From: a virus
Length of the DNA stretch: 23,170 nucleotides
Virus record (IMG/VR): IMGVR_UViG_3300042402_005128
Span: 1 to 23,170 of that record
Strand: one strand, 5' to 3'
The stretch's first letter is position 1, and each line of letters starts with the position of its first letter. The notes below the pieces were generated by a model. That model searched no databases. It saw nothing but the letters and a program-made list of their open reading frames with translations, and was not told the origin of the DNA. This document shows, piece by piece, positions 5,801-21,787 of this stretch. The position numbers were made by a program, and so were the translations under genes.

Positions 5801-7771
5801 TCAGGAACTAGCGGTACTACAGGCACCAGCGGTACATCTGGAACCTCCGGTACTCGAGGAACATCAGGTACTAGCGGAACAAGCGGAACGTCAGGTTTCA
5901 GCGGTAATGATGGATCAAACTCGGGTAGATGGGTATTTGATACCAGTTCACTAGCATTTAGTGATCCAGGAAGTACATACTTTAACACTGATGCTACAAA
6001 CGTTAGTGCTATTACAAAAATATCAATAAGCGATACTAACGCTAACTCGATAAATTACCAAGCTTGGTTAGAAGGATTAGTTACACTCAGGACTACTCAG
6101 ACCGGTTATATTCAAGTGACAGAAGTCGGAAGTACGAGTGTTATAGGAATATGGCCAATAAGCAGTGCAACTGATCAAGCAGGTTATATAGACGTTAGCT
6201 TAGGTACCTCACTCGCTACTAACGGTATTTTAATAGATAACCGTACCTATACAATATCCTGGGTATTTAATGGAGCCAATGGAACTAGCGGTACGTCTGG
6301 TACTAGCGGTACATCAGGGACAAGTGGTACAACAGGTACCTCCGGTACTAGTGGATTAAACGGAGCCAATGGAACTAGCGGTACATCTGGTACTAGCGGT
6401 ACATCAGTAGCTGTATCAGGTACAACTAACTACGTTACTAAATTTACATCAGCTACTACAATTGGAAATACAGGAGTCCCAATATACGATGATGGAACTA
6501 ATGTAGGTATAGGTACAATATCTCCAGTAGATAAATTAACAGTTAACGGTAATTTATTTTTAACAGGAAGTAGCCGCAGTGTATGGATAGGAAATAATGC
6601 TGATTCTGGACCTAGATTTAGAATGCATCATAATGGAACTAATGCTTATCTTGATTACTCTTCTAGTTTATATATTAGAAATGGTGCTTTTAGTTCAACA
6701 ACCACTTTCGATCCTATTGGTAGGGTTGGTATAAATACTACGAACCCATTACATAGATTAGACGTAAGCGGTGATGCTCGAATTACTGGAAATTTGGGTG
6801 TTAATGGGGTATTTGCTACATTTCCTTTATATGTTAGAACTGCAACAAATCAAAGATTTAGAGTTGTAGATGGGGGTGGCGGTTATACTCAATTATCCTC
6901 ATTAGATGATGCGGAAGCATTTTTTACCCCAATAATGTTAGGTGATTCTTGGGTAAATATAAATGCCTCAGGAAGTGTCGGTATAAATACGTTATCTCCA
7001 TCAGCAAGACTTCATGTAGCAGGTACTACCTACCTCTCCGCGTCTCTTAATAACACACCATTAACATCATTTTCAGGAAATAATACTGCAGGGGTTTATT
7101 CTACTCAACTTGCATTCGTTAACGATACTACATATTATGGCGCTTACTTAAGTACGAAACGAGATAATTCTAGTGTAAACGGGGTACAACTGACTCTTAC
7201 AACTGCTGACGGATCGGCTGATTTCTTTTTTGAAACACCTGATTACGCAACTCCGCAGTTAAGATTTTCGGCCGGTGGAGCTAGTAGTTATGCTAATCTA
7301 GCATTTAGTAACAATACCGGTAGTGGACTCTATTCTGATGGATTTGGACCAAACAATAGCCCTCAAAGTATTTATTTTGCTTTCGATAACACAAATAAAT
7401 TTCAATTCTCAGGAAGTGGATTATTTAGAGCAGCCGACGACGTAATAGCTTTTTATTCTTTCTCGGATAGAGAACTCAAGAAAAATATCTTACCAATCTG
7501 CGGTAGTCTAGCGCTTGAAAAAGTACAGCAGCTACAGGGAGTATATTATAGGTGGAAAGATGATGGAGGTAGTAGGGCCGGTAACGAGGAGATAGGATTT
7601 ATTGCTCAAGATGTAGAAAGCGTTATACCACAGCTTGTACGAGAGTACGAACGTCTTGGACAGGAAGGAAAATATAAATCCGTCGATTACGCTCACATTA
7701 CAGCCCTTCTTGTAGAAGCAATAAAGGAACAACAGAAGCAGATTGATGAACTAAAAGCTAAAATAGGGTAA
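2858..7771 (+). CDS. giant tail fibre with Gly-Thr-Ser collagen-like tracts, kelch-like repeats and S74 chaperone domain
   Basis: A 1637-residue fibre. Residues 1-52 (RIELKRSSVPGKVPDTQDLLLGEVAINTYDGKAYIKK region) match the N-terminal attachment domain common to phage fibres. Collagen-like Gly-X-Y tracts, mostly GTS, occupy about 54-88, 178-471, 867-1021 and 1138-1184. Small beta-rich domains lie at about 89-176 and 1022-1137. Six kelch-like repeats of about 46 residues fill about 527-805. From about 1190 come shaft modules containing 'GTNVGIGT..P..KLTVNG' and 'RVGINTTNPLHRLDVSG'. The last 100 residues (SDRELKKNI at about 1537, then IGFIAQDVE and VDYAHITALLVEAIKE) are a peptidase S74/endosialidase chaperone domain, which normally trimerises the fibre and then cuts itself off. 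The protein should be a trimeric receptor-binding fibre. No Shine-Dalgarno sequence is visible; the leader is A-rich. Confidence 0.93.
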   Translation: MSVRIELKRSSVPGKVPDTQDLLLGEVAINTYDGKAYIKKDVNGVQTIVELGSAGAPGTSGTSGTSGTSGTSGAAGSSGTAGTSGTSGVSAEYIGFSTSSLTIPSGSGQPYTIYTQTNLAYTIAQTLLIAYDVSNNFEASVTSYNAGTGILDVISNGTFVGSGTYSNWTINLAGASGGDGTSGTSGTSGTSGTSATSGTSGTSGTSGTSGTSATSGTSGTSGTPGTSGINGTSGTSGTTGTSGTTGTSGTSGTSATSGTSGTSGVNGTSGTSGTTGTSGTTGTSGTSGTSGTSATSGTSGTSGVNGTSGTSGTTGTSGTSGTTGTSGTSGINGTSGTSGTSGTSGIDGTSGTSGTSGTSGTSGTTGTSGTSGTSATSGTSGTAGTTGTSGTSGTTGTSGTSGTSGTSGTTGTSGTTGTSGTSGTSGTSGTTGTSGTTGTSGTTGTSGTSGTSGTRGTSGTTGTSGTSGTSGTGFNTINNPGQGRVLLSDGSTNAATASVVATVVGSTFSISGSAALTGSAVFSYIVPSVWVAGGAMITARSCLGGAGTPSAALAFGGNVSSPIIGPFCTCTEAYNGTTWATGGSLINGTAFLSSAGTQNAALAAGGGFPGTTCTEAYNGLTWSAGGAMNVGRARMGSAGIQNSAIVFGGYTPANNPTRCTETYNGSAWAVGGNLITERNCLAGAGASNTAALAFGGYNAAIVIVSCVEAYNGASWSTRTAMITARQGLAGAGIQNSALGFGGNTSFPSIVCVACTEEYNGTSWTTRAALNTARVLLAGCGASNAAAVGFGGLAPSNVSCTEAYTGPTVTPTYNYSNADGSSQVTGSFLVTGSVYLRGLQYTTSVTSSVLIDTATGLLYFTSGSVGGGSGTSGTSGTSGTSGTSGTSATSGTSGTSGISGTSGTSGTSGLNGTSGTSGTSGTSGTTGTSGTSGTTGTSGTSGINGANGTSGTSGTSGANGSSGTSGTSGTSGVNGADGSSGTSGTSGTTGTSGTSGTSGTRGTSGTSGTSGTSGFSGNDGSNSGRWVFDTSSLAFSDPGSTYFNTDATNVSAITKISISDTNANSINYQAWLEGLVTLRTTQTGYIQVTEVGSTSVIGIWPISSATDQAGYIDVSLGTSLATNGILIDNRTYTISWVFNGANGTSGTSGTSGTSGTSGTTGTSGTSGLNGANGTSGTSGTSGTSVAVSGTTNYVTKFTSATTIGNTGVPIYDDGTNVGIGTISPVDKLTVNGNLFLTGSSRSVWIGNNADSGPRFRMHHNGTNAYLDYSSSLYIRNGAFSSTTTFDPIGRVGINTTNPLHRLDVSGDARITGNLGVNGVFATFPLYVRTATNQRFRVVDGGGGYTQLSSLDDAEAFFTPIMLGDSWVNINASGSVGINTLSPSARLHVAGTTYLSASLNNTPLTSFSGNNTAGVYSTQLAFVNDTTYYGAYLSTKRDNSSVNGVQLTLTTADGSADFFFETPDYATPQLRFSAGGASSYANLAFSNNTGSGLYSDGFGPNNSPQSIYFAFDNTNKFQFSGSGLFRAADDVIAFYSFSDRELKKNILPICGSLALEKVQQLQGVYYRWKDDGGSRAGNEEIGFIAQDVESVIPQLVREYERLGQEGKYKSVDYAHITALLVEAIKEQQKQIDELKAKIG
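3390..4275 (+). repeat. longest Gly-Thr-Ser coding repeat tract
   Basis: About 98 Gly-X-Y triplets in one reading frame, mostly GTS with interruptions of the types GAT, GIN, GVN, GID and GTT. Codons are varied: Gly is GGA, GGT, GGC or GGG; Thr is ACT, ACA, ACC or ACG; Ser is AGC, AGT, TCA, TCT, TCC or TCG. Most of the tract is therefore degenerate at the DNA level. Shorter tracts of the same kind lie at about 3017-3121, 5455-5920 and 6270-6408. Confidence 0.95.
4028..4183 (+). repeat. perfect 63-bp tandem duplication inside the GTS tract
   Basis: A 63-base unit of seven 9-base codon triplets is present twice without a mismatch (4034-4096 and 4097-4159). It starts a third time for 24 bases (4160-4183) before diverging. 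The unit encodes 21 residues of GTT/GTS triplets. This is a recent in-frame expansion, unlike the codon-scrambled tract around it. Confidence 0.93.
4438..5275 (+). repeat. six kelch-like repeats in the fibre gene
   Basis: Six degenerate units of about 140 bases encode repeats of the form W-x-x-G-G-x-(M/L)-x-x-x-R ... A-G-x-x-x-x-A-x-x-F-G-G ... C-(T/V)-E-x-Y-N-G. A cysteine directly before the (T/V)-E-x-Y motif is kept in all six. The pattern matches kelch/galactose-oxidase-type blades, so a six-bladed propeller is likely. Confidence 0.75.
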
Positions 7772-8604: not shown

Positions 8605-11600
8605 ATGAACGGTAGTTTCGATTTTATAGAAATAGGTACAGCGGATTTTGATACACTCATTGAAGAAGCCTCTAATACAGATAGAGGGCTCAGTATCGAA
8701 CCTCTTGGATTCTACTTAAACAAACTTCCAGACAAAGCTAATGTAATCAAATACCAAGCTGCAGTAACAGATACTGACGGCTTCATGGATATCTACTATA
8801 TAGAGGAAAGTAAGATAGTAGAATATAACCTACCCTGGTGGGTGAGAGGATCCAATAGCGTCGGCAAACCGCACCCATTCACTGTTCAGGAAATCGGAGA
8901 AGAATTATACAACAAACTTGTAACTATTGATAGGGTACCTACTGTATCCTGGAAAACATTAATTGAAAAATACCAAATCGAAAAAATTAAGTATCTAAAA
9001 ATAGATACAGAAGGCTACGATATTGTTATATTGAATGCATACTTAGATGAGTGTGAAAAAAATCCTAATTTATACGCCGATAAAATAAAGTTTGAATGTC
9101 ATAACGGAGTTTCTAATAGAGAAGAAGTCAATAAGTTACTTACCAGGTTTAAAGGATATAGCGTTCAGGTCAATGATATTGATGTCAATCTCGTAAAAGA
9201 AACTATCCCTAGAGTTATACACCAGACTTATAGAACAAAAGAACTTCCAGTTGAGCTTGCTTTTTCAGTTGAAAAACTGAAATTAATGAATCCTACTTTT
9301 GAATATAAGTTTTACGATGATCAAGACTGTATTAATTTTATTCGAGATAATTACGATCAAGATACTTTAGATTGTTATTTAGATATTAATCCAAAATACG
9401 GAGCAGCAAGAGCAGACTTTTTCAGGTACTTGTTGATGTATAAAGTAGGGGGTGTTTACCTTGATATAAAAAGCACTACAACTATTCCCTTAGAGCAAAC
9501 ATTGCTTGTAACTGACGAGTACATTTTAACACATTGGCCAGGAAAAGACTGGGCCGAAGAATTAGGGTATGAACATGGCGAGTTTCAAAACTGGCATATA
9601 ATTTGTAAACCAGGACATCCGTTCTTAAAGCAAACGATTGAGGATGTTAAAAACAACATAAAAAATTACGATGGAGTTGTAGGTAGAGAAGCAGTTTTGA
9701 AAATTACCGGTCCTATTGCTTATAGTAAAGCTATCCTCAGCTCTTTAGGTAAGTACAGAAGAAATAAATGGGACTCACCTGTAAGAGAGTATAAGTTAGA
9801 AGGAGAGGTAGGTCTTAAGTACATGAACATAAGAGTCGATCGTCATACGGCCTATCATAGTAAGTATCCAATGGATGAACCTCTTATTCTACCTAGAAAA
9901 AAACATAAAAAAGCGTACGTACTGTATGCTAACGAGAATTACTTTGAGACAGTTCAAGCTTGTGTAGATTCTATTAAAGCTTTCAGTCAAATTCCTATCT
10001 TTGTTTACCTGCTAAACTGCAGTAAGAAAATAGAGGGAGCAAGAACAATCAATTGGACATCTCAAATAGGTAAACTAGAAGATAATAACTATATTCAAGA
10101 AAGTGGTAATTTTTACATTGATAGATCTAAGCCTGACATTTATAAATTACTTATACAGCGTCCGCTTATAATCAAAGATGCACTCAAAAAGTATGCTGAG
10201 ACTGTCTGCTATGTAGATTCTGATTCAATAGCAACAGATAATGTAGATCGTATTTTCAGTTATTACGATTCTGAGAAATCATACCCGTACTTCGTAAAAG
10301 GAATATACGATTATCTACTTGTAGGAAGTAGAGGAGGTGCTAGTGATAGAGATAACTTACACACAACACTTGAGCATCCTGCTTGTGAATTATTTGGAGT
10401 AGATCAGCGAGTAAGACGAGGTTATAGACAGACAGGATATTTTGTTGCAGGTAAAAACACTATCGACTTCCTAGAAGAGTGGTATTGGATGTGTACTAAT
10501 CCAAAAGTTCTAAGTAATTCAACTTGGTATGCACCTTACCATGAAGAGACTATTGCTAATGTCTTGTTATGGAAATACGATATACATGATGGACTGCCTT
10601 ATATCTATGTAAACGGAAGTTTAGATAGGATACATAAGGTATACTCAGAATTAGAATTTACAGGAGTATCTAGAGAGATAGAGGAGTGGTTTAAAATCCC
10701 GGGACGTAAAGAAGATATTTTATTCTTTCACGGAGAGAAAAATCCGGATAAGATGTCAAGTATGGTGGACAGAATAAAAAACCGTGGAAAAAAGATTAAA
10801 AAATTAGTTTACATTGCCCCGCATCTCTCTACAGGAGGGCAGCCTCAATACCTACTTAAGCAAATACAAGAATTCAAAGATCAGTTTGATATTCACGTCA
10901 TAGAGTACAACTATAACTCAGCACATTTTATTGTCCAGCGAAGTCAGATAGAACAAATGCTCGGTACTCGATTCTTTAGTCTAGGTGATGACAAAGATAA
11001 CCTAATGCCTATCATCAACGAGATAAATCCCAATATCGTACATCTGCACGAGGTACCTGAATTTTTTATGAAAGAGGAGATTGCCGTAGACCTATTTAAC
11101 AACGCTACTAGGAACTACTTTATTGTGACAACAACGCACTCTTCTACAACTAATCCTTCCGCATTAAAATTTCATCCAGATAAATTTGTGTTAGTAAGCG
11201 AATGGTCTAGACAAAAATTTGAAAAAGAGCTCCCGGAAGTACCTACCGAGGTTTGGGAATATCCAATTCACGCCTATACCGGAGATAAGAAAGCCGCACA
11301 AAAACTACTAAATCTAGATCCGCAGTATAAGCACGTATTGAATGTAGGACTATTCACCCCAGGAAAAAATCAAGGAGAGATTTTTAAAATAGCACGTGAG
11401 CTAGAGAATGAAAAAATTAAGTTTCACTTTGTAGGTAATCAAGCAGGCAACTTTCAAGAGTATTGGGAACCGTTGATGAAGGATAAGCCTGATAATTGTA
11501 TAGTATGGGGCGAAAGACAAGATGTAGAAAATTTTTATCAAGCCTGCGATCTATTCTATTTTAGCTCGAAGTTTGAATTGAATCCTCTTTCTATTAAAGA

Positions 11601-11739
11601 AGCCTTGAGCTATAGAATGCCTTGTCTATTCAGAAGACTTGAAACCTACTTAGATAGCTACGATAATAATCCGCTAGTGAAATATATCGACGATGATCTA
11701 GAAAAAACTAAAGAGATACTGTTGCATGATCTACGATAA
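8605..11739 (+). CDS. four-domain FkbM methyltransferase / triple glycosyltransferase
   Basis: A 1044-residue polypeptide with four enzyme domains. Residues 1-195 are an FkbM methyltransferase (DFIEIGTADF at 6-15, YLKIDTEGYD at about 130-139) closely similar to the start of the gene at 351. Residues about 200-425 are a GT32/Och1-like transferase (IPRVIHQTYR, then ARADFFRYLLMYKVGGVYLDIKS ending near 290); the usual DxD reads D-I-K. Residues about 434-715 are a GT-A domain with GT8-like features (CYVDSDS, DSD at 538-540). Residues about 733-1044 are a GT-B domain of the GT4 type (PHLSTGGQPQYL near the start, FELNPLSIKEA at about 990-1000). Together these could build and methylate a short glycan. 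The end overlaps the next gene by 14 bases. The start lies just after a host-like promoter and has no Shine-Dalgarno sequence. Substrates cannot be read from sequence. Confidence 0.85.
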   Translation: MNGSFDFIEIGTADFDTLIEEASNTDRGLSIEPLGFYLNKLPDKANVIKYQAAVTDTDGFMDIYYIEESKIVEYNLPWWVRGSNSVGKPHPFTVQEIGEELYNKLVTIDRVPTVSWKTLIEKYQIEKIKYLKIDTEGYDIVILNAYLDECEKNPNLYADKIKFECHNGVSNREEVNKLLTRFKGYSVQVNDIDVNLVKETIPRVIHQTYRTKELPVELAFSVEKLKLMNPTFEYKFYDDQDCINFIRDNYDQDTLDCYLDINPKYGAARADFFRYLLMYKVGGVYLDIKSTTTIPLEQTLLVTDEYILTHWPGKDWAEELGYEHGEFQNWHIICKPGHPFLKQTIEDVKNNIKNYDGVVGREAVLKITGPIAYSKAILSSLGKYRRNKWDSPVREYKLEGEVGLKYMNIRVDRHTAYHSKYPMDEPLILPRKKHKKAYVLYANENYFETVQACVDSIKAFSQIPIFVYLLNCSKKIEGARTINWTSQIGKLEDNNYIQESGNFYIDRSKPDIYKLLIQRPLIIKDALKKYAETVCYVDSDSIATDNVDRIFSYYDSEKSYPYFVKGIYDYLLVGSRGGASDRDNLHTTLEHPACELFGVDQRVRRGYRQTGYFVAGKNTIDFLEEWYWMCTNPKVLSNSTWYAPYHEETIANVLLWKYDIHDGLPYIYVNGSLDRIHKVYSELEFTGVSREIEEWFKIPGRKEDILFFHGEKNPDKMSSMVDRIKNRGKKIKKLVYIAPHLSTGGQPQYLLKQIQEFKDQFDIHVIEYNYNSAHFIVQRSQIEQMLGTRFFSLGDDKDNLMPIINEINPNIVHLHEVPEFFMKEEIAVDLFNNATRNYFIVTTTHSSTTNPSALKFHPDKFVLVSEWSRQKFEKELPEVPTEVWEYPIHAYTGDKKAAQKLLNLDPQYKHVLNVGLFTPGKNQGEIFKIARELENEKIKFHFVGNQAGNFQEYWEPLMKDKPDNCIVWGERQDVENFYQACDLFYFSSKFELNPLSIKEALSYRMPCLFRRLETYLDSYDNNPLVKYIDDDLEKTKEILLHDLR

Positions 11740-12874
11740 TCTTATAAAGAACCTAGATAATATAAAGGCTAGCCTTGGGATATCGTTTGTAAACGGCCCT
11801 AAGGTAGAAGTAATATCGCCTGTTAAGGCCGAATATAAGGTAGAGTTCATTAATCCAATTACTGGACAGATCGTTCATACCAGTATTATCAAGAACAATC
11901 ATTGGACTAAATGCTTGTATGAATATTTTATACCCTGGTATATTAAGGTGTATCAAAATGAGAACGGTACTTTTGTATTTGCCGAAGACCATCACTTTAA
12001 TGCAGAAGGTAAGAGAGTCTATATTTCACTAGATTCAAAAGCACTAGGTGATACCCTGGCCTGGTTTCCGTACGTAGAAGAATTTAGGAAGGAGCATAAC
12101 TGTAAAGTTGTTTGCTCTACCTTCCATAATTATCTATTCAAGGATCAGTATCCAGAAATTGAGTTTATAAAGCCAGGAGAGGTAGCACACAATCTCTATG
12201 CGATGTATGTATTAGGTTGGCCATATAAAGAAGACGGAGAAGTCAATCTATATAGAACACCTAGTGATTTTAAAACTAAACCGCTGCAGCAGACAGCTAG
12301 TGATATTTTAGGAATTGAGTTTTCAGAAGTTAAACCAAAACTACCTATCTACGGTACAGAAAAGAAAAAACAAGTTTCAATAGCCATTCACGGAACCGCT
12401 CAAGCTAAGTATTGGAATAATCTAACGGGGTGGCAAGAAACAGTAGATTGGCTTATTGAAAGAGGTTACGAAGTTTATCTTCTATCTAAGGAAGGAGATA
12501 CGTACATGGGTAATAATCACCCTAAAGGAATTAAGTATCTAGATTCATATACGCTAGAGAATACAATCAAAGTATTACAAGAATCAGAAGCATTCATAGG
12601 AATTAGTAGTGGATTGAGTTGGGTATCGTGGGCTGCAGGCACACCAACAGTACTGATCTCGGGTTTTACTGAAGAATACACAGAACCTGAAAGCTGTTAC
12701 AGATTAGGTGCACCACAAGGTAAGTGCAGGGGCTGTTTCAATAGATCAAGACTCGATGCAGGAGATTGGAATTGGTGTCCAGATCATAAGAATACTGAAA
12801 GACAGTTTGAATGCTCTAAATCTATTAAATCTGAAGCAGTTATAGAGAAACTTAAGTTAATTTTAGGTAGATAG
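11726..12874 (+). CDS. TibC/BAHT-like protein O-heptosyltransferase (iron-finger GT-B)
   Basis: At 382 residues the protein follows the bacterial autotransporter heptosyltransferase (TibC, Aah) pattern along its whole length. The N-terminal beta domain (about 26-90) is followed by SLDSKALGDTLAWFPYVEEF (101-120), PLQQTASDILGI (186-197), the donor-site segment AIHGTAQAKYWN (220-231) and IGISSGLSWVSWAAGTP (291-307). The cysteines C334-x2-C337, C351 and C363 then correspond to the iron-finger of TibC. Family members attach ADP-activated heptose to Ser residues of strand-loop-strand repeats in secreted proteins. In a phage, the obvious Ser/Thr-rich candidate acceptor is the fibre at 2858, which is inference. 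The start overlaps the preceding glycosyltransferase gene by 14 bases. It is the last gene before a 129-base gap carrying late-type motifs. Confidence 0.88.
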   Translation: MIYDNLIKNLDNIKASLGISFVNGPKVEVISPVKAEYKVEFINPITGQIVHTSIIKNNHWTKCLYEYFIPWYIKVYQNENGTFVFAEDHHFNAEGKRVYISLDSKALGDTLAWFPYVEEFRKEHNCKVVCSTFHNYLFKDQYPEIEFIKPGEVAHNLYAMYVLGWPYKEDGEVNLYRTPSDFKTKPLQQTASDILGIEFSEVKPKLPIYGTEKKKQVSIAIHGTAQAKYWNNLTGWQETVDWLIERGYEVYLLSKEGDTYMGNNHPKGIKYLDSYTLENTIKVLQESEAFIGISSGLSWVSWAAGTPTVLISGFTEEYTEPESCYRLGAPQGKCRGCFNRSRLDAGDWNWCPDHKNTERQFECSKSIKSEAVIEKLKLILGR

Positions 12875-13481: not shown

Positions 13482-15605
13482 ATGGCAGAAGCATTAATTT
13501 CACCAGGCGTATTCCTAAGAGAAAACGACCTTTCCCAAATAACAGCAGGTCCCGTTACAGTAGGTGCAGCCCTAATCGGCCCCACTGTAATAGGAAAACC
13601 TAACGTTCCCACCCTCGTAACTTCTTACTCTCAGTATAAGGCTAAATTCGGAACTACTTTTATTTCCGGAGGCAATACCCACGAGTACTTAACTTCACAA
13701 GCTGCTTACAATTACTTCCAACAAGGAGGTACTTCTCTTCTTGTAACGAGAGTAGCTAGTGGATCTTATACTGCAGCTACTGCAGATGTGGTTAGTAATG
13801 CAGGAACGAAAGCAACGCTCGTTACTTCTAGCTTCCCTATCGACGTTCCAGGTCCAGGTACCGGATTCCAACTTACCGGATCATCAGTTGGATTCTTTTT
13901 TGTAACAGCTAGTACTTATGTTGTTGCTGATGCCCCTCCTCTTTATTACGTATCCTCTGGATCTACTCAAACTACTACAGCTACTGCTATTGCCAATAAG
14001 ATCAATTCCTTGATCTCTACATTCAGCATTTCAGCTTCTGCTGCTGCAGGCGTACTTCAACTAACTGCAAGCTCTGTCGGAATCGCAGGTAATAGCTATT
14101 CATACGTTACTCAATCTATCACGTCTACCTTCTCAGGAGGTACAGAGCAAACTGCTTCTTTCGTTCTTGAAACATTATCAGTTGGTGAGATAATGAATAA
14201 TAACTTCTCAGCTTCTGCTAATATTAACAGAAATGGTATTCTACCTTCTGGATCTGCAAACAACGTAAGATGGCAGGTTACTCAAGCTGATTCCGCTTCA
14301 GGCGTATTTACCGTTATTGTAAGAAGAGGTGATGATTACACAGCAAACCAAACTGTACTTGAAACTTGGACAAATCTTTCTTTAGATCCAAACCAAAATA
14401 ACTACATCGCCTACGTAATTGGTGATCAGACTCAAACACTTGCTTACGATAGCGATGGTCAAGCATATTTAGAGGTTACAGGTAGCTACCCTAACGCTTC
14501 AAACTACATTCGAGTTAAGACCGTTAATCAACCTACTCCAAACTATCTAAACCCACAAGGTCAAGCTTATTCTCAATACACTGCTTCAATTCCATTGAAC
14601 GGAAGCGGTTCTTATAACGGTTCATTTAGCGGTGCAACAGGACCTTTATTTGGATGCTCTGTAGGTACATCATTAGCTAGAGTGAATTTATTCGAGAATA
14701 TCCCTACCATTACCTCTACAGGAGGAACTCCTTCTACTAACATTCAAGGTGTATTCCCCGATAACTATACTGCCACACTAAACTTACTATCAAATCAAGA
14801 TCAGTACGTTTATGATTCAATCTATGCCCCCGGCATAACTAATCAAAACGCTAGTTCAGTAATCGGCGAACTTCTCGCTATGGTTCAGAACCGTGGAGAT
14901 GCTATTGCAGTAGTGGATATGGTTGGATACAATCAAGCTATCAACTCTGTAACATCGGCCGCTCAATCTTACGATAACAGCTACGGTGCTACTTACTGGC
15001 CATGGGTTCAAGTTCGTTCAATCGAAACTGGACGTCTACACTTTGTACCTGCTTCGGTAATTATCCCTGGAGTATACGAATACAATGATAGAGTATCAGC
15101 TGAGTGGTTTGCACCAGCCGGTCTTAATCGCGGAGGTCTTCCAACCGTAATCCAGCCTGAAAAGCGCCTTACTGTAGGTCAGCGTAATATCTTATATACT
15201 GCTAAAGTTAACCCAATTGCAGTATTCCCAGGACAGGGAACGGTAGTATACGGACAGAAGACTTTACAAGCTCGTGCTTCTGCACTAGATAGAGTAAACG
15301 TTCGCCGTCTGTTGATCGCTCTTAAGAGCTATATCGGTCAAATTGCCCAGACCCTGGTATTCGAGCAGAATACAGCCGTTACACGTAATCGTTTCCTTGC
15401 TCAAGTTAATCCATATCTTGATTACGTACAACAGCGTCAAGGTCTATATGCTTTCCGCGTAGTAATGGACGAGACCAATAATACACCGGATGTAATCGAT
15501 CGTAATCTTCTTGTAGGTGCCATTTACTTACAGCCAACTAGAACTGCTGAATTCATTCAACTTGATTTCAACATTCTACCAACCGGTGTAACCTTTGGTG
15601 CATAA
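13482..15605 (+). CDS. contractile tail sheath protein
   Basis: At 707 residues the protein is close to T4 gp18 in length. The N-terminus (SPGVFLRENDLSQITAGPVT, then GAALIGPTVIGKPNVPTLVTS) is the standard sheath start. The C-terminal part (ASALDRVNVRRLLIALKSYIG, RNRFLAQVNPYLDYVQQR, LVGAIYLQPTRTAEFIQLDF) is the conserved sheath core that packs on the tube and forms the handshake with neighbouring subunits. Between them, residues about 126-222 form an inserted module with the pattern TATAIANKINS ... LTASSVGIAGNSY. Similar modules occur in Mu/P2-type sheaths, and a close copy exists in the gene at 16760. The protein polymerises around the tail tube and contracts at infection. It is preceded by a late-type motif and no Shine-Dalgarno sequence. 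Confidence 0.95.
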   Translation: MAEALISPGVFLRENDLSQITAGPVTVGAALIGPTVIGKPNVPTLVTSYSQYKAKFGTTFISGGNTHEYLTSQAAYNYFQQGGTSLLVTRVASGSYTAATADVVSNAGTKATLVTSSFPIDVPGPGTGFQLTGSSVGFFFVTASTYVVADAPPLYYVSSGSTQTTTATAIANKINSLISTFSISASAAAGVLQLTASSVGIAGNSYSYVTQSITSTFSGGTEQTASFVLETLSVGEIMNNNFSASANINRNGILPSGSANNVRWQVTQADSASGVFTVIVRRGDDYTANQTVLETWTNLSLDPNQNNYIAYVIGDQTQTLAYDSDGQAYLEVTGSYPNASNYIRVKTVNQPTPNYLNPQGQAYSQYTASIPLNGSGSYNGSFSGATGPLFGCSVGTSLARVNLFENIPTITSTGGTPSTNIQGVFPDNYTATLNLLSNQDQYVYDSIYAPGITNQNASSVIGELLAMVQNRGDAIAVVDMVGYNQAINSVTSAAQSYDNSYGATYWPWVQVRSIETGRLHFVPASVIIPGVYEYNDRVSAEWFAPAGLNRGGLPTVIQPEKRLTVGQRNILYTAKVNPIAVFPGQGTVVYGQKTLQARASALDRVNVRRLLIALKSYIGQIAQTLVFEQNTAVTRNRFLAQVNPYLDYVQQRQGLYAFRVVMDETNNTPDVIDRNLLVGAIYLQPTRTAEFIQLDFNILPTGVTFGA

Positions 15606-16130: not shown

Positions 16131-16146
16131 GTTTTGTATTAACAGA

Positions 16147-16154
16147 TATTTATA
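16147..16154 (+). promoter_or_regulatory. late-type motif TATTTATA before the tube gene
   Basis: TATTTATA in GATATTTATATAAAAC, 16 bases before the tube ATG at 16171. Confidence 0.6.
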
Positions 16155-16170
16155 TAAAACATAGAATAAA

Positions 16171-16656
16171 ATGCCAGTATTAGATCCAAATGAAATAATG
16201 TTTACGGCCTATGAACCAACGGTTCAGAACCGCTTTATCATGTATATTGACGGCATTCCTTCTTTCATGATTAAGAGTGCTACTGCACCTAACGTGAACT
16301 TGAATGAAGTTAAGCTTGACCACATCAACATCTACCGTAAGATCAAGGGCAAGGCCGAGTGGCAAGATATGACCTTGAATCTTTATAACCCAATCTCTCC
16401 TTCCGGTCAACAGGCCTGTATGGAGTGGATTCGTTTATCACACGAGTCTGTAACAGGACGTGATGGATATTCTGACTTCTACAAGAAGGATTTAAATCTA
16501 TCAATCCTAGGTCCAGTAGGTGATGTAGTATCAGAATGGATTATTAAAGGCGCTTTCATCAAAACCGCAAACTTCGGATCTTACGATTGGTCAAACCAAG
16601 ATGCAATCACAATCGAGCTTGGTATTGGAATGGATTACTGTATCCTCAACTACTAA
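16171..16656 (+). CDS. tail tube protein (T4 gp19-like)
   Basis: At 161 residues it has the size of T4 gp19 (163). The order of features fits the tube family: an N-terminal arm (MPVLDPNEIMFTAYEP), RFIMYIDGIPSFMIKSATAP (21-40), the long beta hairpin with IYRKIKGKAEWQDMTLNLYNP, a helix (QQACMEWIRLSHES) and the final strands (GAFIKTANFGSYDW). Subunits stack as hexameric rings to form the rigid inner tube through which DNA passes. It has its own late-type motif, A-rich leader (AGAATAAAATG) and a strong terminator 24 bases after the stop, so it can be a single-gene, high-level transcript. Confidence 0.93.
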   Translation: MPVLDPNEIMFTAYEPTVQNRFIMYIDGIPSFMIKSATAPNVNLNEVKLDHINIYRKIKGKAEWQDMTLNLYNPISPSGQQACMEWIRLSHESVTGRDGYSDFYKKDLNLSILGPVGDVVSEWIIKGAFIKTANFGSYDWSNQDAITIELGIGMDYCILNY

Positions 16657-16759: not shown

Positions 16760-17956
16760 ATGGCGATAACATTATCTGGTGGCGTAATTAATACCTTCAC
16801 TTCAGGTGCAGTTAATTATAAATCACATACTTTTACAGGAAGTATCGGTCAATTAACCGTAACAGGAACCGGCACTCAAGCCGTACAATTTTTACTTGTA
16901 GGCGGCGGCGGTGGCGGCGCAAGAGGTGCAGGCGGTACTTCTAATACTACCGATCACGGAAACGGCGGCGGCGGCGGTGGAGTATTTTATACCGCATCCT
17001 ATGTTATCGGTACTACATATCCAACCTGGAGTGTTTTAGTTGGAGACGGAGGTCTTGGAGGATCGAACGCAGCTGCTGCTACCGTTGGGGGAATAACCAC
17101 TTTCTTAGGTCCAGCGGTTAACGCTAAAGCTATAACTAGCTCACTTTTTGCCGATGGAGCATTTTTCCAATTAACCGGATCAGTGACAGGTACATTCTTT
17201 GTAACCTCTAGCACTACACAAGTTGATGCTGCACCAATCTACTACGTAATTACTGGTTCTACTGCTAACTTAACAGCTACAGCTATTGCAACTAAGATCA
17301 ACAGTCTACCCGCTTTCAACATTACTGCTTCAGCATCTGCTTCTAATCTACTGATGACAGCAAGTATTGCAGGCACTGCTGGAAATAGCTTTAGATATGT
17401 AAGTAGTTCATTTACCTTAGCCTTCACTGGAGGTATAAATGAAACAAGATTCACAGGTTCATATGGCGGATTTGGCGGACAACCCGAAGGAGGCGTCGGC
17501 GCATCAGGTGGCGGTAGCTTCCCAACAGGTGCTGCAGCAATCTTTGGAGCAGAGGGAACCGCAGGCGGTGCTCAAAAAGGCAAATCAGGTGCCGGCGGCG
17601 GTGGTGCCGCTAGTGCAGGAAGCGATGCATATACAATCTTCGATAATCCTTTTACATTCTATAACGGAGGTAATGGAGGAGCAGGCCGCGCATTCACAAT
17701 CGAAGACGGAACTACTAAACATTATGGTTCCGGAGGCGGTGGAGGCGGATGGGTAAATGTAGGACCAGGCGGCGGAGGAACAGGCGGGAACGGAGTCGGC
17801 GGCGATGGCGGTTCCGGAGTACAAGCACCCGGTAAAAACGGCCTAGCCAATAGAGGCGGAGGCGGTGGCGGCGGAGCTCTCTCCGATCAATCATCTAACT
17901 GGGGGGCTGGCGGAAACGGAGGCTCTGGCGTAGTAGTGATTACTTATACAGTCTAA
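16760..17956 (+). CDS. glycine-rich adhesin-like tail protein with a sheath-type insert
   Basis: A 398-residue protein. Residues about 1-45 are a beta-rich start (HTFTGSIGQLTVTGTGTQAV). The Gly-rich parts (about 50-130 and 230-398) hold runs of up to seven glycines and end GGNGGSGVVVITYTV. That is the 'GGSG(I/V)V(I/V)IxY' signature of glycine-rich phage and bacterial surface domains, which resemble polyglycine-sandwich receptor-binding tips. Residues about 133-228 are a module (TATAIATKINS ... TASIAGTAGNSF) matching the insert of the sheath gene. The gene has its own late-type motif and lies between two strong terminators, so it is an independent unit. A virion decoration or host-binding role is likely. 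Its GC-rich glycine codons make the DNA locally richer in GC. Confidence 0.8.
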   Translation: MAITLSGGVINTFTSGAVNYKSHTFTGSIGQLTVTGTGTQAVQFLLVGGGGGGARGAGGTSNTTDHGNGGGGGGVFYTASYVIGTTYPTWSVLVGDGGLGGSNAAAATVGGITTFLGPAVNAKAITSSLFADGAFFQLTGSVTGTFFVTSSTTQVDAAPIYYVITGSTANLTATAIATKINSLPAFNITASASASNLLMTASIAGTAGNSFRYVSSSFTLAFTGGINETRFTGSYGGFGGQPEGGVGASGGGSFPTGAAAIFGAEGTAGGAQKGKSGAGGGGAASAGSDAYTIFDNPFTFYNGGNGGAGRAFTIEDGTTKHYGSGGGGGGWVNVGPGGGGTGGNGVGGDGGSGVQAPGKNGLANRGGGGGGGALSDQSSNWGAGGNGGSGVVVITYTV

Positions 17957-17975
17957 TTGATTCTCAATAAGTTAG

Positions 17976-18002
17976 AAAGCCGCCTAAAAAGCGGCTTTTT
18001 TT
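17976..18002 (+). terminator. rho-independent terminator after the glycine-rich gene
   Basis: AAAGCCGC (17976-17983), loop CTAAAAA, GCGGCTTT (17991-17998), then continuing T. A perfect 8-bp stem ending in a T run. Confidence 0.93.
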
Positions 18003-18037
18003 ATGTAAAAAGTTGATTATTAGAGATTAAACACTTA

Positions 18038-18044
18038 TATTTAG
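18038..18044 (+). promoter_or_regulatory. variant late-type motif TATTTAG
   Basis: TATTTAG, one base off the consensus, 16 bases before the ATG at 18061 and downstream of the second terminator. Confidence 0.4.
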
Positions 18045-18060
18045 GTATAAAATAAATGTT

Positions 18061-18366
18061 ATGAGTACGTCAACTTTTTTCGTGTTATTACCGATTACTC
18101 TTATTATCCTAGTATTAATGAGAGTTTTCTGGTTAGAGCTATTGAGTATTATTATAGTTTTAAAAATCTTATTCTATCTCTCAATTTTATCTTTTGGTTC
18201 AGCTATTATTTGGTCTATTGGAATTAATAACGATCAAGAAGGCTTTTGGACTTGCTGGCTATTTTTTGGTATCGTTTATCTAGTTGCAACTGCTCTCGTA
18301 TTCGGAATCTTGAGAAATATCTTCGATATGGGAGTAGATTTGATTAGGTATATTTTTAAACTATAA
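18061..18366 (+). CDS. small multi-pass membrane protein, unknown function
   Basis: A 101-residue, very hydrophobic protein with about three membrane segments (about 6-22, 25-58 as one or two helices, and 65-85). A polar loop GINNDQEGFW (about 54-63) and a short basic/amphipathic end (DLIRYIFKL) complete it. It has no recognisable family motif. A holin or a superinfection-related membrane protein would fit the size and topology, but nothing in the sequence decides this. It lies alone between a terminator and the late-type motif of the chaperone gene, and its leader is A/T-rich (AAATAAATGTTATG). It interrupts the usual tube-chaperone-tape order together with the glycine-rich gene. Confidence 0.72.
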   Translation: MSTSTFFVLLPITLIILVLMRVFWLELLSIIIVLKILFYLSILSFGSAIIWSIGINNDQEGFWTCWLFFGIVYLVATALVFGILRNIFDMGVDLIRYIFKL

Positions 18367-18389
18367 CGATAGAAAAGCTAATTTCGATA

Positions 18390-18397
18390 TATTTATG
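18390..18397 (+). promoter_or_regulatory. late-type motif TATTTATG before the chaperone gene
   Basis: TATTTATG 22 bases before the ATG at 18420. The 15 bases AGAAAAGCTAATTTC at 18371-18385 upstream are identical to 2769-2783. Confidence 0.55.
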
Positions 18398-18419
18398 TAT
18401 ATATAACTAAATTAAGATT

Positions 18420-19172
18420 ATGTCAGAAAAATTCACTCTCCCTACAGAAGTTATCGAACTTCCATCCCTAGGTAAAGTTTACGAAACCGAAAACCCTCTC
18501 TCTTCCGGTACTATCGAAATGAAGTATATGACAGCACGCGAGGAAGATATTCTCACCAATGTAAACCTGTTAAAACAAGGGATCGCTATTGAAAAGATGT
18601 TACAGTCGTTGATCAAATCTCCCATTAAATATGAAGATCTATTATTGGGAGACAGGAACGCCCTTCTCATTGCCTCTCGTATTCTGGCTTACGGATCTAA
18701 CTACTCTTTTGAATTCGTAGATTCAGAAACAGAATCGAAAGAGACGGTCACAATCGATTTGCAAAATCTAAAGAATAAAGAAGTAGATCATTCTATCTTT
18801 AATAATAAGAATGAATTTACCTTTGAACTCCCATATTCAAAAAATGTAGTCACCTTTCGACTATTGACTGTAGGAGATGAAAAAGCTATTGATGCAGAAA
18901 TGAAAGGATTAAAGAAAGCAAATTTAGCTGCTGGTGAGATTACTACCCGTCTCAAGAAACAGATTCTATCTGTAAATGGAAACTATGAAGCAAAAGCCGT
19001 TAGAGATTTCATTGATAATTACTTAATCGCTAAAGACTCTAGCCCACTAAGAGCATATATTGGTAAAATAACCCCGGATATAGACCTAACAATCAGCTTC
19101 ACGCTCGCCTCGGGCAAAGAAGTAGAGCAAATGCTACCGCTGACGGCGGAATTTTTTTTTCCCGGGGGTTGA
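18420..19172 (+). CDS. tail assembly chaperone / T4 baseplate (gp26-like) protein
   Basis: A 250-residue protein. Its N-terminus (VIELPSLGKVY at 11-21, then GTIEMKYMTAREEDILTN at about 30-47, and a helical region) follows the pattern of T4-type gp26/baseplate-hub and tail-chaperone proteins: 'LPS.G..Y......I.....T..EE..L'. The remainder contains FTFELPYSKNVVTFRLLTVG and ends TLASGKEVEQMLPLTAEFFF. It sits directly before the tape-measure gene, where tailed phages keep the tape-measure chaperone. The ORF ends in a T9 run followed by CCC GGG GGT TGA. A conserved-looking continuation lies in the +1 (or -2) frame from 19144, so the short form may be the unshifted product of a frameshifting pair. 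The exact T4 counterpart is uncertain. Confidence 0.78.
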   Translation: MSEKFTLPTEVIELPSLGKVYETENPLSSGTIEMKYMTAREEDILTNVNLLKQGIAIEKMLQSLIKSPIKYEDLLLGDRNALLIASRILAYGSNYSFEFVDSETESKETVTIDLQNLKNKEVDHSIFNNKNEFTFELPYSKNVVTFRLLTVGDEKAIDAEMKGLKKANLAAGEITTRLKKQILSVNGNYEAKAVRDFIDNYLIAKDSSPLRAYIGKITPDIDLTISFTLASGKEVEQMLPLTAEFFFPGG

Positions 19173-19431
19173 GTACCGGCAAATATACAAACGAGAAGTA
19201 TTTGAACTCACCTACCACGGAGGAGGTGGCTTTTCCTGGTCTGAAGTAATGGAAATGCCTGTTACTGAACGTAGGTTAAATCTACGGTTTATAAATGAGC
19301 ATTTAGAAAAACTTCAAGAAATTAGAAAAGAACAGCAAACTGTTACTGCAGATAAACCTTTGGTTTCTAAGCCAAACATTAAGCCTAAAGAAGAAACTCC
19401 TACCTATACTTCCAAGGTAAAAAAACGATAA
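19144..19431 (+). CDS. frameshifted C-terminal extension of the tail assembly chaperone
   Basis: This frame is open from 19144, overlaps the previous ORF through its T9 run (19152-19160), and has no ATG until 19249. The codons before that ATG are clearly coding-like: EYRQIYKREVFELTYHGGGG, then FSWSEVMEMPVTERRLNLRF. This matches the 'iFxLxYhGgFsxxxxxxMPxxxRR' pattern of tail-chaperone C-terminal domains. A shift on the T run, +1 or -2, would give a fusion of about 336 residues. The end (KPLVSKPNIKPKEETPTYTS, then KVKKR) is basic and disordered. Alternatives are a true small gene starting at 19249, or one continuous gene broken by a homopolymer sequencing error. It stops 28 bases before the tape-measure gene. 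Confidence 0.72.
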   Translation, partial: RRNFFFPGVEYRQIYKREVFELTYHGGGGFSWSEVMEMPVTERRLNLRFINEHLEKLQEIRKEQQTVTADKPLVSKPNIKPKEETPTYTSKVKKR

Positions 19432-19437
19432 ATAATC

Positions 19438-19445
19438 TATTTATT
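19438..19445 (+). promoter_or_regulatory. late-type motif TATTTATT before the tape-measure gene
   Basis: TATTTATT 14 bases before the ATG at 19460, the shortest spacing in the set together with 12982. Confidence 0.55.
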
Positions 19446-19459
19446 TCTATAGATAGAGT

Positions 19460-21787
19460 ATGGCTGTTTCTCAAAATCCACAGAATCCACAAAATCCTCA
19501 ACGGACTCCTCAAGAGCAAGAAGCTAGAGAGCAAGTGCGTTATCTTGATGAACAGGCTTTAAGTCTAAAAAATATACTCAGCCTCAAAAGACAGATTAGT
19601 AAAGCAGATAAGGAAGAGCAGAACCTAAGGGAACAAATTGTTAATTTAGGAAGACAGCAAGCTAGAAACGCTATCGACTATAAGCAACAGACTGAGTTTA
19701 TTAAACAACTTCAGGATGATTTGCGAGACAACATACTACAAGGAAACGCTTCAAGCGTAAGAGCTCTAAAAGTGCAAATTACAATGGAGCAAGCAAGAGC
19801 AGCAGAAATGAAAAAGACTGCTGGAGGAGCTCTTGCAGCCCAAGCTTTAGAAGCTAAGAAAAGAAAAGATGCCTTAACGGCAGAAAGAAATCTAGTAAAA
19901 GACATTAATAGCAAGCGAAACATTGGAACTAGGCTGATGGATTTGTTTAAGTCTAAAGAAGCCCGACAACGACAGATAGATCTAGCTAGAGCCCAGACAC
20001 AGGGAGGTGCCAATCTACCTCCAGGCGGCGGTGCTGGAGGAGGAAAAGGAGCAGCAGCTGCAGCAGCCGGAGCCGGCCTTTTTGGAGGAATCGCTGCAGG
20101 ACTCATGGCTGGTGCAAAAGCTCTCATGGGACCTTTAAAGGCATTAGGCGGTTTAGCACAAAAAGCTATTGTAGCTCCTTTTGCTGATGCAGCACAATTG
20201 CTTACCGGTGAGAACTTTGGTATGGGAAGCGGTAAGGTAAGAACAACTGGTGTCGGAGGACTGCTAGGGGGTGTTCAAGAATTTGCAAGTGCAATACCTA
20301 TAATCGGAGGGTTAATGGGAAGTCTCGTAGGCGTAGTAAAGACTATAGTCGAAGGTATTCTCGGTATCGAACAAGGTATTTTTAGGTTTGCAAGAGCAAT
20401 AAACGTTTCTTACGGACAGGCAAATCGAATGAGAAGTTCATTTGCTGCAATAGCAGCAAGTAGCGGTAATATTGCAATCAATGCCGATAGGATGATGCAA
20501 TCTCAAGCAGAGATTGGCAATCAGCTAGGGATCAATAAACAGCTTAGCGGCGATATCTTAAAGAACGACGTACTACTTAGAGACGTAGTAGGTACAGAAG
20601 CCGAAATCAGACAATCGATTGCAGCTACATCTATTACTTCAGGTAAGAATGCAATTAAACTTACCCAAAGTCTTATAGGTACTGTAGGAGTGTTCAACAA
20701 ACTAAGAGGTACTAGTTTTAGCTTTAACGGTATAATGAAAGAAGCAGCTAAATTGACAGGTGTTATAGGATTGACCTTTTCTAAGTACCCGGAGAAAATA
20801 GCAAAAGCTCTAATGTCGGCCAAAGCTCTAGGAATGGAGTTACAGCAATTAGACTCAATCGGAAGTAGTCTATTGGACTTTGAGACTAGTATCAGTAAAG
20901 AGATGGAAGCCCAGGTTTTGACAGGGAGGGAAATGAATCTAACTCTTGCAAGAGAGGCAGCATTAAATAACGACTATGCCACTCTCACAGAAGAAATCGC
21001 AAAAAACGTAGGTGATTCAACTCAGTTTTTAGAACTAAATAGAATACAACAAGAGGCTATCGCCGAATCAGTAGGAATGACTGCTAACAGTCTCGCCGAT
21101 GTTCTTAAGAAGCAAGAGCTATATAAACAGTTAGGTGCAACTGACTTAAAAACCTTCCATGAAAAGATAGCACTTCTAGAAAAGCAAGGTAAGACTCAAG
21201 AACAAATTAGCGCAATGATCGGTAAGGACGCATACAATGCATATACGCAAATATCTACGGCAGAAAGACTTACCGAAATTCTCGAAGGAATGAAAAGAAC
21301 CTTTGTTGAACTTATAAGACAATCAGGTATATTTGATTTCATAACCAAACCAGAAAAGATTACTGCTTTTGTAAGAGCACTTGCCGATAAGTTGGCTAGT
21401 GTTATAGACATTGTAGGTAGAATTGTAGCCGGAATAATGGAAGGAGTAGCATATGTAGTTGGTTTATTTAGCGATCAAAAAGCACAGGAAATAAGATCAT
21501 TAGCCGGCTCTGTTAGAGCAGGTACCGGTACTTTTGCTGAAAGTATGAGAATAGCCACAGGGGCTATGGGAGGTACTCCTGCACCCTCGGTAGGTACAAC
21601 TGTCGAAAACACTACCCGTCAACAAGCAGCAGCTACAGCTACCAAAACAGCAGAAGCTAAAAGTGCAGCAGCACAACAACAAGGTAGACCTTTAGTACTA
21701 AATAACTACTTACAAGTTGATAAAGATGTTCTTGCAAAAAATACTGTCGAGGCATTTCCTCGGCAGTGGCAAACATATTTACAGTAA
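19460..21787 (+). CDS. tail tape-measure protein
   Basis: A 775-residue protein with tape-measure architecture. After a short Asn-Pro-Gln repeat (QNPQNPQNPQ, 5-14) come about 150 residues of charged helix and coiled coil. A Gly/Ala linker follows (about 180-200), then hydrophobic segments at about 200-235, 277-310 and 648-670, with long helices between (for example LMSAKALGMELQQLDSIGSS). A Thr/Ala/Gln-rich stretch then leads to the C-terminal motif VLNNYLQVDKDVLAKNT. The protein spans the tube lumen, sets tail length and is ejected ahead of the DNA. At about 0.15 nm per residue, 775 residues would mean a tail of roughly 115 nm. It follows the chaperone gene, as expected, and has its own late-type motif and no Shine-Dalgarno sequence. 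Confidence 0.88.
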   Translation: MAVSQNPQNPQNPQRTPQEQEAREQVRYLDEQALSLKNILSLKRQISKADKEEQNLREQIVNLGRQQARNAIDYKQQTEFIKQLQDDLRDNILQGNASSVRALKVQITMEQARAAEMKKTAGGALAAQALEAKKRKDALTAERNLVKDINSKRNIGTRLMDLFKSKEARQRQIDLARAQTQGGANLPPGGGAGGGKGAAAAAAGAGLFGGIAAGLMAGAKALMGPLKALGGLAQKAIVAPFADAAQLLTGENFGMGSGKVRTTGVGGLLGGVQEFASAIPIIGGLMGSLVGVVKTIVEGILGIEQGIFRFARAINVSYGQANRMRSSFAAIAASSGNIAINADRMMQSQAEIGNQLGINKQLSGDILKNDVLLRDVVGTEAEIRQSIAATSITSGKNAIKLTQSLIGTVGVFNKLRGTSFSFNGIMKEAAKLTGVIGLTFSKYPEKIAKALMSAKALGMELQQLDSIGSSLLDFETSISKEMEAQVLTGREMNLTLAREAALNNDYATLTEEIAKNVGDSTQFLELNRIQQEAIAESVGMTANSLADVLKKQELYKQLGATDLKTFHEKIALLEKQGKTQEQISAMIGKDAYNAYTQISTAERLTEILEGMKRTFVELIRQSGIFDFITKPEKITAFVRALADKLASVIDIVGRIVAGIMEGVAYVVGLFSDQKAQEIRSLAGSVRAGTGTFAESMRIATGAMGGTPAPSVGTTVENTTRQQAAATATKTAEAKSAAAQQQGRPLVLNNYLQVDKDVLAKNTVEAFPRQWQTYLQ

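Follow-up and report, generated by a model that had tools for sequence, protein, structure and literature searches.

The window analyzed here is the whole 23,170-nucleotide stretch of the IMG/VR virus record IMGVR_UViG_3300042402_005128. It carries tail genes in the order tail sheath, tail tube, two other ORFs, chaperone, and tape measure, and two reading frames overlap at the 3′ end of the chaperone gene. The features of this region are as follows.

13482 to 15605, plus strand: tail sheath protein (phrog_23, E 2.4e-71; PF04984, E 2e-14)
16171 to 16656, plus strand: tail tube protein, gp19-type (phrog_4542, E 1.5e-22)
18420 to 19172, plus strand: T4 gp26-type tail assembly chaperone, short form (“G” or TAC-N), a 0-frame ORF of 250 amino acids
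19137 to 19149, plus strand: CCGCTGACGGCGG, a 5-bp hairpin and candidate stimulator, ending 2 nt before the T run and terminator-like together with T9
19152 to 19160, plus strand: T9 run of exactly nine T, three TTT Phe codons, the slip region
19158 to 19161, plus strand: likely slip codon UUU_C, placed from wobble patterns
19161 to 19166, plus strand: CCC GGG, candidate slow A-site codons, both rare, CCC invariant and GGG mostly so
19162 to 19428, plus strand: +1-frame C-terminal domain (“T” or TAC-C), PGVEYRQIYKREVFELTYHGGGGFSWSEVMEMPVTERRL..., with its TAA stop at 19429 to 19431
19170 to 19172, plus strand: TGA stop of the 0 frame, ending the short form
19460 to 21787, plus strand: tape measure protein of 775 amino acids (BLASTP, E 7e-28 against the protein annotated as tape measure in Flavobacterium phage immuto)

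The 0-frame ORF ends in GAA TTT TTT TTT CCC GGG GGT TGA, and its T9 run is the sole A/T homopolymer of at least nine in the whole window. The +1 frame is open from 19144, just after a TGA, to the TAA at 19429 to 19431. Its first ATG, GTG, or TTG lies at 19249, and the only rare start candidate upstream of that position is ATA at 19183. Both frames were thus read as in the preliminary description, which had reported a 250-residue ORF ending just after nine T and an overlapping frame open from 19144 and startless until 19249. Because no usual start precedes 19249, the conserved block REVFELTYHGGGGFSWSEV lies upstream of any start. Stop-free +1-frame stretches of equal length inside the other ORFs of the window numbered 0 of 3326, and no other coding copy of the +1-frame extra domain was found within the window, which represents an incomplete genome. 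A chaperone C-terminal domain had been placed at 19144 to 19251; a conserved domain is indeed found there, but much of it continues to 19428.

The short form belongs to the T4 gp26 type according to the Pfam and PHROG models, matching PF12322 with E 5.5e-10 and 39.7 bits (curated cutoff, 24.5) and phrog_150 with E 9.3e-14. T4 gp26 and T4 gp51 match the same two families; when profiles were compared directly, neither gp26 nor gp51, nor their close relatives, matched the short form. The chaperone gene sits between the genes for the major tail protein and the tape measure, the position occupied by G/GT chaperone genes, and, as in a G/GT system, the short-form ORF is overlapped at its 3′ end by a second frame with a conserved offset. 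Immuto, SP-15, and LIS04 have the same gene order as the window, and their +1-frame domain is either left out of the annotation or represented by a small “hypothetical protein.” Between tail tube and chaperone, the window has a glycine-rich 398-aa ORF and a membrane-like 101-aa ORF (16760 to 18366); the immuto region that matches this insertion is without annotated genes.

The short form and the extra domain were modeled separately, with rows from named phages left out of two predictions. The AlphaFold model of the short form has a pLDDT of 92.4. In VIA-align, its top two matches among 986 aligned PDB chains were 3klu (YqbN; Z 5.1, rmsd 3.8 over 85 residues) and 2ob9 (the HK97 chaperone; Z 4.7, rmsd 4.5 over 92 residues), both below the level of a strong match, so that the resemblance of the predicted fold to known tail assembly chaperones is suggestive. 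The extra domain is predicted to form a helical hairpin (pLDDT about 84 to 94 over the first 60 residues), and a structure search gave no confident fold match for it (best E 0.33). Its profile aligned with the C-terminal tail of the T4 gp51 family with an hhalign E of 7.6e-4 at a probability of only 25%, and the aligned tail is the part that is present in gp51 and absent from gp26. The earlier reading of the gene as a tail chaperone preceding the tape measure gene is backed by the family models, by its place among the tail genes, and by the homology of the tape measure, and the predicted fold is suggestive of it.

Conservation of the junction was followed in 333 loci, collected from four viral scans, one genome scan, and named phages. 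The offset was counted in the 328 loci with both parts, including sets fetched by the upstream domain alone; some loci share a contig, and distinct junctions number 226 to 240. In 325 of the 328 loci, the second part is encoded in the +1 frame, down to a protein identity of ~50% in the first part. The junctions that share this offset differ widely (T9, TTCT6, T7, TTTCTTCTC); the +1 offset proposed earlier is conserved in relatives, and the run itself varies. The cultured phages immuto, Mel-JY01, SP-15, LIS04, and GXN1 all have an overlapping +1 extension, and several relatives are located in Flavobacteriales MAG contigs. Homologs of the +1-frame domain share 25 to 88% identity, and comparison with one relative (L083) shows 10, 3, and 32 differences at codon positions 1, 2, and 3; the +1-frame domain is under purifying selection. 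One junction alone has CCA instead of CCC or CCT (L320, TGG CCA GAT), with the +1 offset kept. In the deposited annotations of Mel-JY01 (L163, 3752 to 3988) and immuto (L162, 3854 to 3964), parts of the long form appear as separate hypothetical proteins.

This record bears on the possibility that a miscounted T, introduced in sequencing or assembly, has split a single continuous ORF. Long homopolymers are error-prone, and eight T would fuse the two frames. The offset recurs, however, in hundreds of contigs that come from numerous metagenomes, as well as in phages in culture; most of these junctions lack T9, their sequences are diverse, and synonymous constraint is focused on the slip region. 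The eight-T explanation raised in the preliminary description is therefore excluded for practical purposes, its probability being negligible.

Two of the three loci that depart from the offset are also informative about a second alternative, namely, two separate genes with reinitiation at ATG 19249 and no fusion protein. L044 and L053 encode the extra domain in a gene of its own, which opens with an ATG and has ...CPLFPGPEYR close to the beginning. The T run has been lost from L044, which reads TTC TTC TTC CCA there instead; the row of the third exception (L281) looks like a mislocated stop. Separate, well-started genes, named earlier as an observation that would count against a fusion, therefore do exist, but as rare exceptions, one of them without the T run. 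In some other relatives, the stop is followed at a short distance by an ATG in frame. For the window itself we regard reinitiation as highly improbable, since the best-conserved part of the domain (EYR...FELTYHGGGGFSWSEV) is upstream of 19249, selection on the +1 frame reaches the slip site, and a product starting at 19249 would lack the conserved GG motif.

The place of the shift is limited by stop codons on both sides. Among the 240 distinct junctions compared, no upstream stop in the +1 frame ends closer than 11 nt to the Pro codon, and the earliest stop in the 0 frame, at +3, comes directly after that codon in L035 (TTC TTT TTT CCC TAA). The shift is therefore confined to four codons, F-F-x-P. 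The site reads TTY TTT TTT CCC GGG in the clade of the window and TTT YTT TGG CCT GAC in the sister clade, with the variants TAC CCT, TTC CCT, and CTC CCT. In the subclade of the window all three run codons are TTT in 33 of 33 sequences, while other conserved Phe columns have 18 to 30% TTC. Codon choice next to the run is equally strict in the window's clade: CCC occupies the site in 63 of 63 cases versus 4% of the Pro codons upstream in the same genes, and GGG accounts for 55 of 57 Gly codons at the site versus 5% upstream.

Wobble positions allow the slip to be placed more closely. Codon −2 of the sister clade is either TTT or CTT, its first base differing in 34 of 181 (at least 6 changes on the tree); this exchange swaps F and L in the 0 frame and is silent in the +1 frame. 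At codons −3 and −2 of this clade, the wobble base of the 0 frame hardly departs from T (0 and 1 changes; TTT is 78% upstream), and the +1 reading F-F-[GST]-L-T is steadier than the 0-frame reading. The +1 frame thus seems to be already read at these codons, with the slip on UUU at codon −3, and we infer re-pairing on UUU or UUC (UUU_U or UUU_C) from this pattern. In the clade of the window, wobble bases of the 0 frame vary as far as codon −3 (TTT/TTC, 42/21) and not beyond it, which places the slip on the last UUU, before CCC. Slips at UUU_U, UUU_C, and CCC_G (19161 to 19164 in the window) would yield an identical protein in this clade; judging by the wobble pattern, UUU_C with the rare CCC next is the most likely site. 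The sites of the SP-15 group (TTT TTT CAC in SP-15, TTT TTT AGT in LIS04, TTC TTT CGT in GXN1) fit a UUU slip, as far as few sequences and weak profile matches allow. In the jumbo phages XacN1 and LR756511, a similar domain is reached via −1 after T TTT TTA or T TTT TTC; this statement, like that on the SP-15 group, draws on few sequences with weak profile matches (E 1.1e-3 and 1.6e-4). The family extension in Xanthomonas phage XacN1 (L165) and uncultured LR756511 (L344) is unannotated and lies in the −1 frame.

A ribosomal variant in which peptidyl-tRNAPro slips +1 on CCC_G (CCU_N in the sister clade) is unlikely in our estimate. In its favor, 239 of 240 junctions have CCC or CCT as the Pro codon, CCC is rare elsewhere, L035 has CCC immediately 5′ of the stop, and phages with +1 slippage at Pro codons have been described (PMC5009743). 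Slippage on Pro would leave the 0-frame wobbles before it free, yet these are frozen in both clades, and in the sister clade +1-silent positions vary before Pro, as if the frame had been shifted already. The third Pro base is, moreover, the second position of a +1-frame codon (CTN Leu, CCG Pro), so that no Pro slip is needed to account for its conservation. The Pro-codon slip was dropped as the leading model after the wobble analysis.

The preliminary description had left the offset as +1 or −2. A −2 slip on the T run, adding one Phe, is used by phage Mu (PMC5009743), and T9 permits re-pairing two bases back, so the −2 reading is conceivable for T9. The relatives with TTTCTTT and TTTCTTCTC cannot re-pair in this manner and yet have the same offset; the +1 offset is the conserved one, and a −2 event is most improbable for the family.

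The region just 5′ of the T run is biased in codon usage (GCG, 49% versus 5%; ACG, 55% versus 8%). Compared with synonymous recodings, the hairpin region has a mean stability z of −2.16 in the clade of the window and −1.16 in the other clade, while control regions are mostly near 0 and reach at most −0.54. After thinning and GC matching, the values are −1.02 and −0.60, and the controls range from −0.26 to 0.14. From these comparisons of coding sequences, the predicted upstream hairpin is favored by codon choice. In the window's clade it is found at 24 of 37 T9 junctions versus 2 of 21 with shorter runs, counts that are uncorrected for relatedness. No consistent 3′ stimulatory structure was found in 60-nt downstream windows (mean z −0.12 at +8 and −0.83 at +20), and no phage tRNA genes were found in the window.

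A hairpin next to T9 could stimulate slippage of RNA polymerase (PMC5009743) or act on the ribosome. Stem-loop-assisted transcriptional slippage, in which the polymerase drops one base and the shorter mRNA encodes the 336-aa fusion, is therefore a real rival and the main one, for the clade of the window only (hairpin, T9, and CCC). CCGCTGACGGCGG would sit in the exit channel over a U9-C3 hybrid, and the inverted repeat ends 2 nt from T9, as this mechanism would have it; nine T suffice for slips of bacterial polymerase, T9 is invariant in the 33 sequences of the subclade, and the hairpin and T9 tend to occur together. A hairpin 5′-adjacent to T9CCC also resembles the layout of Roseiflexus IS630, where an inverted repeat lies beside T5C5 and one C is deleted, giving the +1 frame (PMC5009743). 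The two differ in the tract, T5C5 there and T9C3 here, and the offset persists in relatives whose tract cannot realign: it is found with TTTCTTT, TTTCTTCTCCC, and TTCTTCTTTCCC, and with runs shortened to T6 and T7. The hairpin is absent in 13 of 37 T9 members, U9 without context would insert bases too, and two mechanisms for one homologous frame are less parsimonious than one. On balance we hold polymerase slippage to be improbable, though worth serious consideration. A mixed account, by which the long form would be made by polymerase slippage in the window's clade and by a ribosomal +1 shift on UUU in the sister clades, is decidedly improbable; it would make this one family with several decoding strategies, including −1 in the jumbo relatives, split genes in two relatives, a second gene in T4, and a switch from ribosomal to transcriptional frameshifting.

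The explanation that we favor, and consider probable, is a programmed +1 frameshift through which one gene for a T4 gp26-type tail assembly chaperone gives two isoforms. Most ribosomes would stop at the TGA ending at 19172 and release the 250-aa short form, and a minority would shift +1 in the U run and read to 19428, giving a 336-aa fusion. In this minority, the P-site tRNAPhe would move from UUU at 19158 to 19160 to UUC at 19159 to 19161 while the rare CCC waits in the A site, the next codon being CCG at 19162 to 19164, and the upstream hairpin may stimulate the slip. If lambda gpG/gpGT and T4 gp26/gp51 are a guide, the short form would coat the tape measure, and the long form would recruit tail tube subunits. 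The system would thus operate like lambda gpG/gpGT inside the T4 chaperone family.

Frameshifted tail chaperones are well known, are described as widespread among long-tailed phages, and are usually −1, also −2 and +1, with T4 a named exception (PMC5009743). The window shares with the lambda-type gpG/gpGT system (PMC5009743) a major short form and a frameshifted long form encoded just 5′ of the tape measure gene; the predicted short-form fold bears a weak resemblance to the HK97 chaperone (2ob9, Z 4.7). Lambda shifts −1 on a heptamer, whereas the shift here would be +1 on UUU in the family of T4 gp26 (PF12322), and the offset likewise differs from a canonical −1 frameshift on X XXY YYZ. T4 gp26/gp51 is similar in its PF12322/phrog_150 family and in the gp51 tail that matches the +1-frame domain. 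It differs in having two full-length genes for the short and long forms, in contrast to one shifted gene here; a separate full-length gene for the long form is not found in the window, where the +1-frame domain has no start before 19249. According to papers citing the 2022 work of Vladimirov, Gautam, and Davidson (PMC10885494, PMC12846349), T4-like chaperones arise by another mechanism, and one such paper ascribes poly-T −1 signals to some of them. The chaperones of Vandenendeviridae and Andersonviridae (PMC12846349) likewise slip on poly-T where the short form ends, and annotation has missed their long form, but they shift −1 on a GTTTTT motif. In Listeria phages PSA, A118, and A500 (PMC5009743), a +1 shift at CCC_UGA in a phage structural gene has CCC at the site as here; those genes encode major tail or capsid proteins and slip on Pro, in contrast to a chaperone and a probable Phe slip. 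Influenza A PA-X (UCC_UUU_CGU; PMC3498833) also shifts +1 on UUU_C followed by a slow codon, with TTC TTT CGT of GXN1 resembling its site, but on a eukaryotic ribosome and in an unrelated gene. Among the publications consulted, which cover the 2022 study of T4-like chaperones through papers citing it, we found no description of a family-wide +1 shift in T4-type chaperones.

The T4-type chaperone family would accordingly use frameshifting, despite the phrase “except T4,” in a large group of environmental phages, and in the direction that is rarer for chaperones. This gives reason to reannotate many genes called “baseplate hub subunit” and the small fragments after them. The relatives form a natural series of −1, +1, split gene, and two genes, which may reveal how phages hold the ratio of short to long form, and immuto is a cultured phage suited to testing a +1 chaperone frameshift. 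To our knowledge, little is understood of the rules that govern bacterial +1 sites, and for this reason a conserved UUU +1 site with a hairpin on its 5′ side would serve well as a model.

Upstream of the tail genes, the window has a possible sulfation cassette (351 to 2570), which consists of the following.

351 to 1766: fused FkbM methyltransferase and sulfotransferase
1763 to 2215: adenylylsulfate-kinase-like protein
2184 to 2570: nucleotidyltransferase-like protein

It is followed by a 1637-aa fiber-like protein (2858 to 7771) with many collagen-type GTS repeats and a peptidase S74 intramolecular chaperone at the C terminus, and by a 1044-aa ORF with an FkbM methyltransferase and several glycosyltransferase domains, then a family 9 glycosyltransferase (8605 to 12874). 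An AT-rich motif like ATATTTATNTATATAA occurs just 5′ of genes, with 10 matches versus 3.6 expected (sites include 2784 to 2799, 16146 to 16161, 18037 to 18052, 18389 to 18404, and 19437 to 19452), and is perhaps a late promoter.
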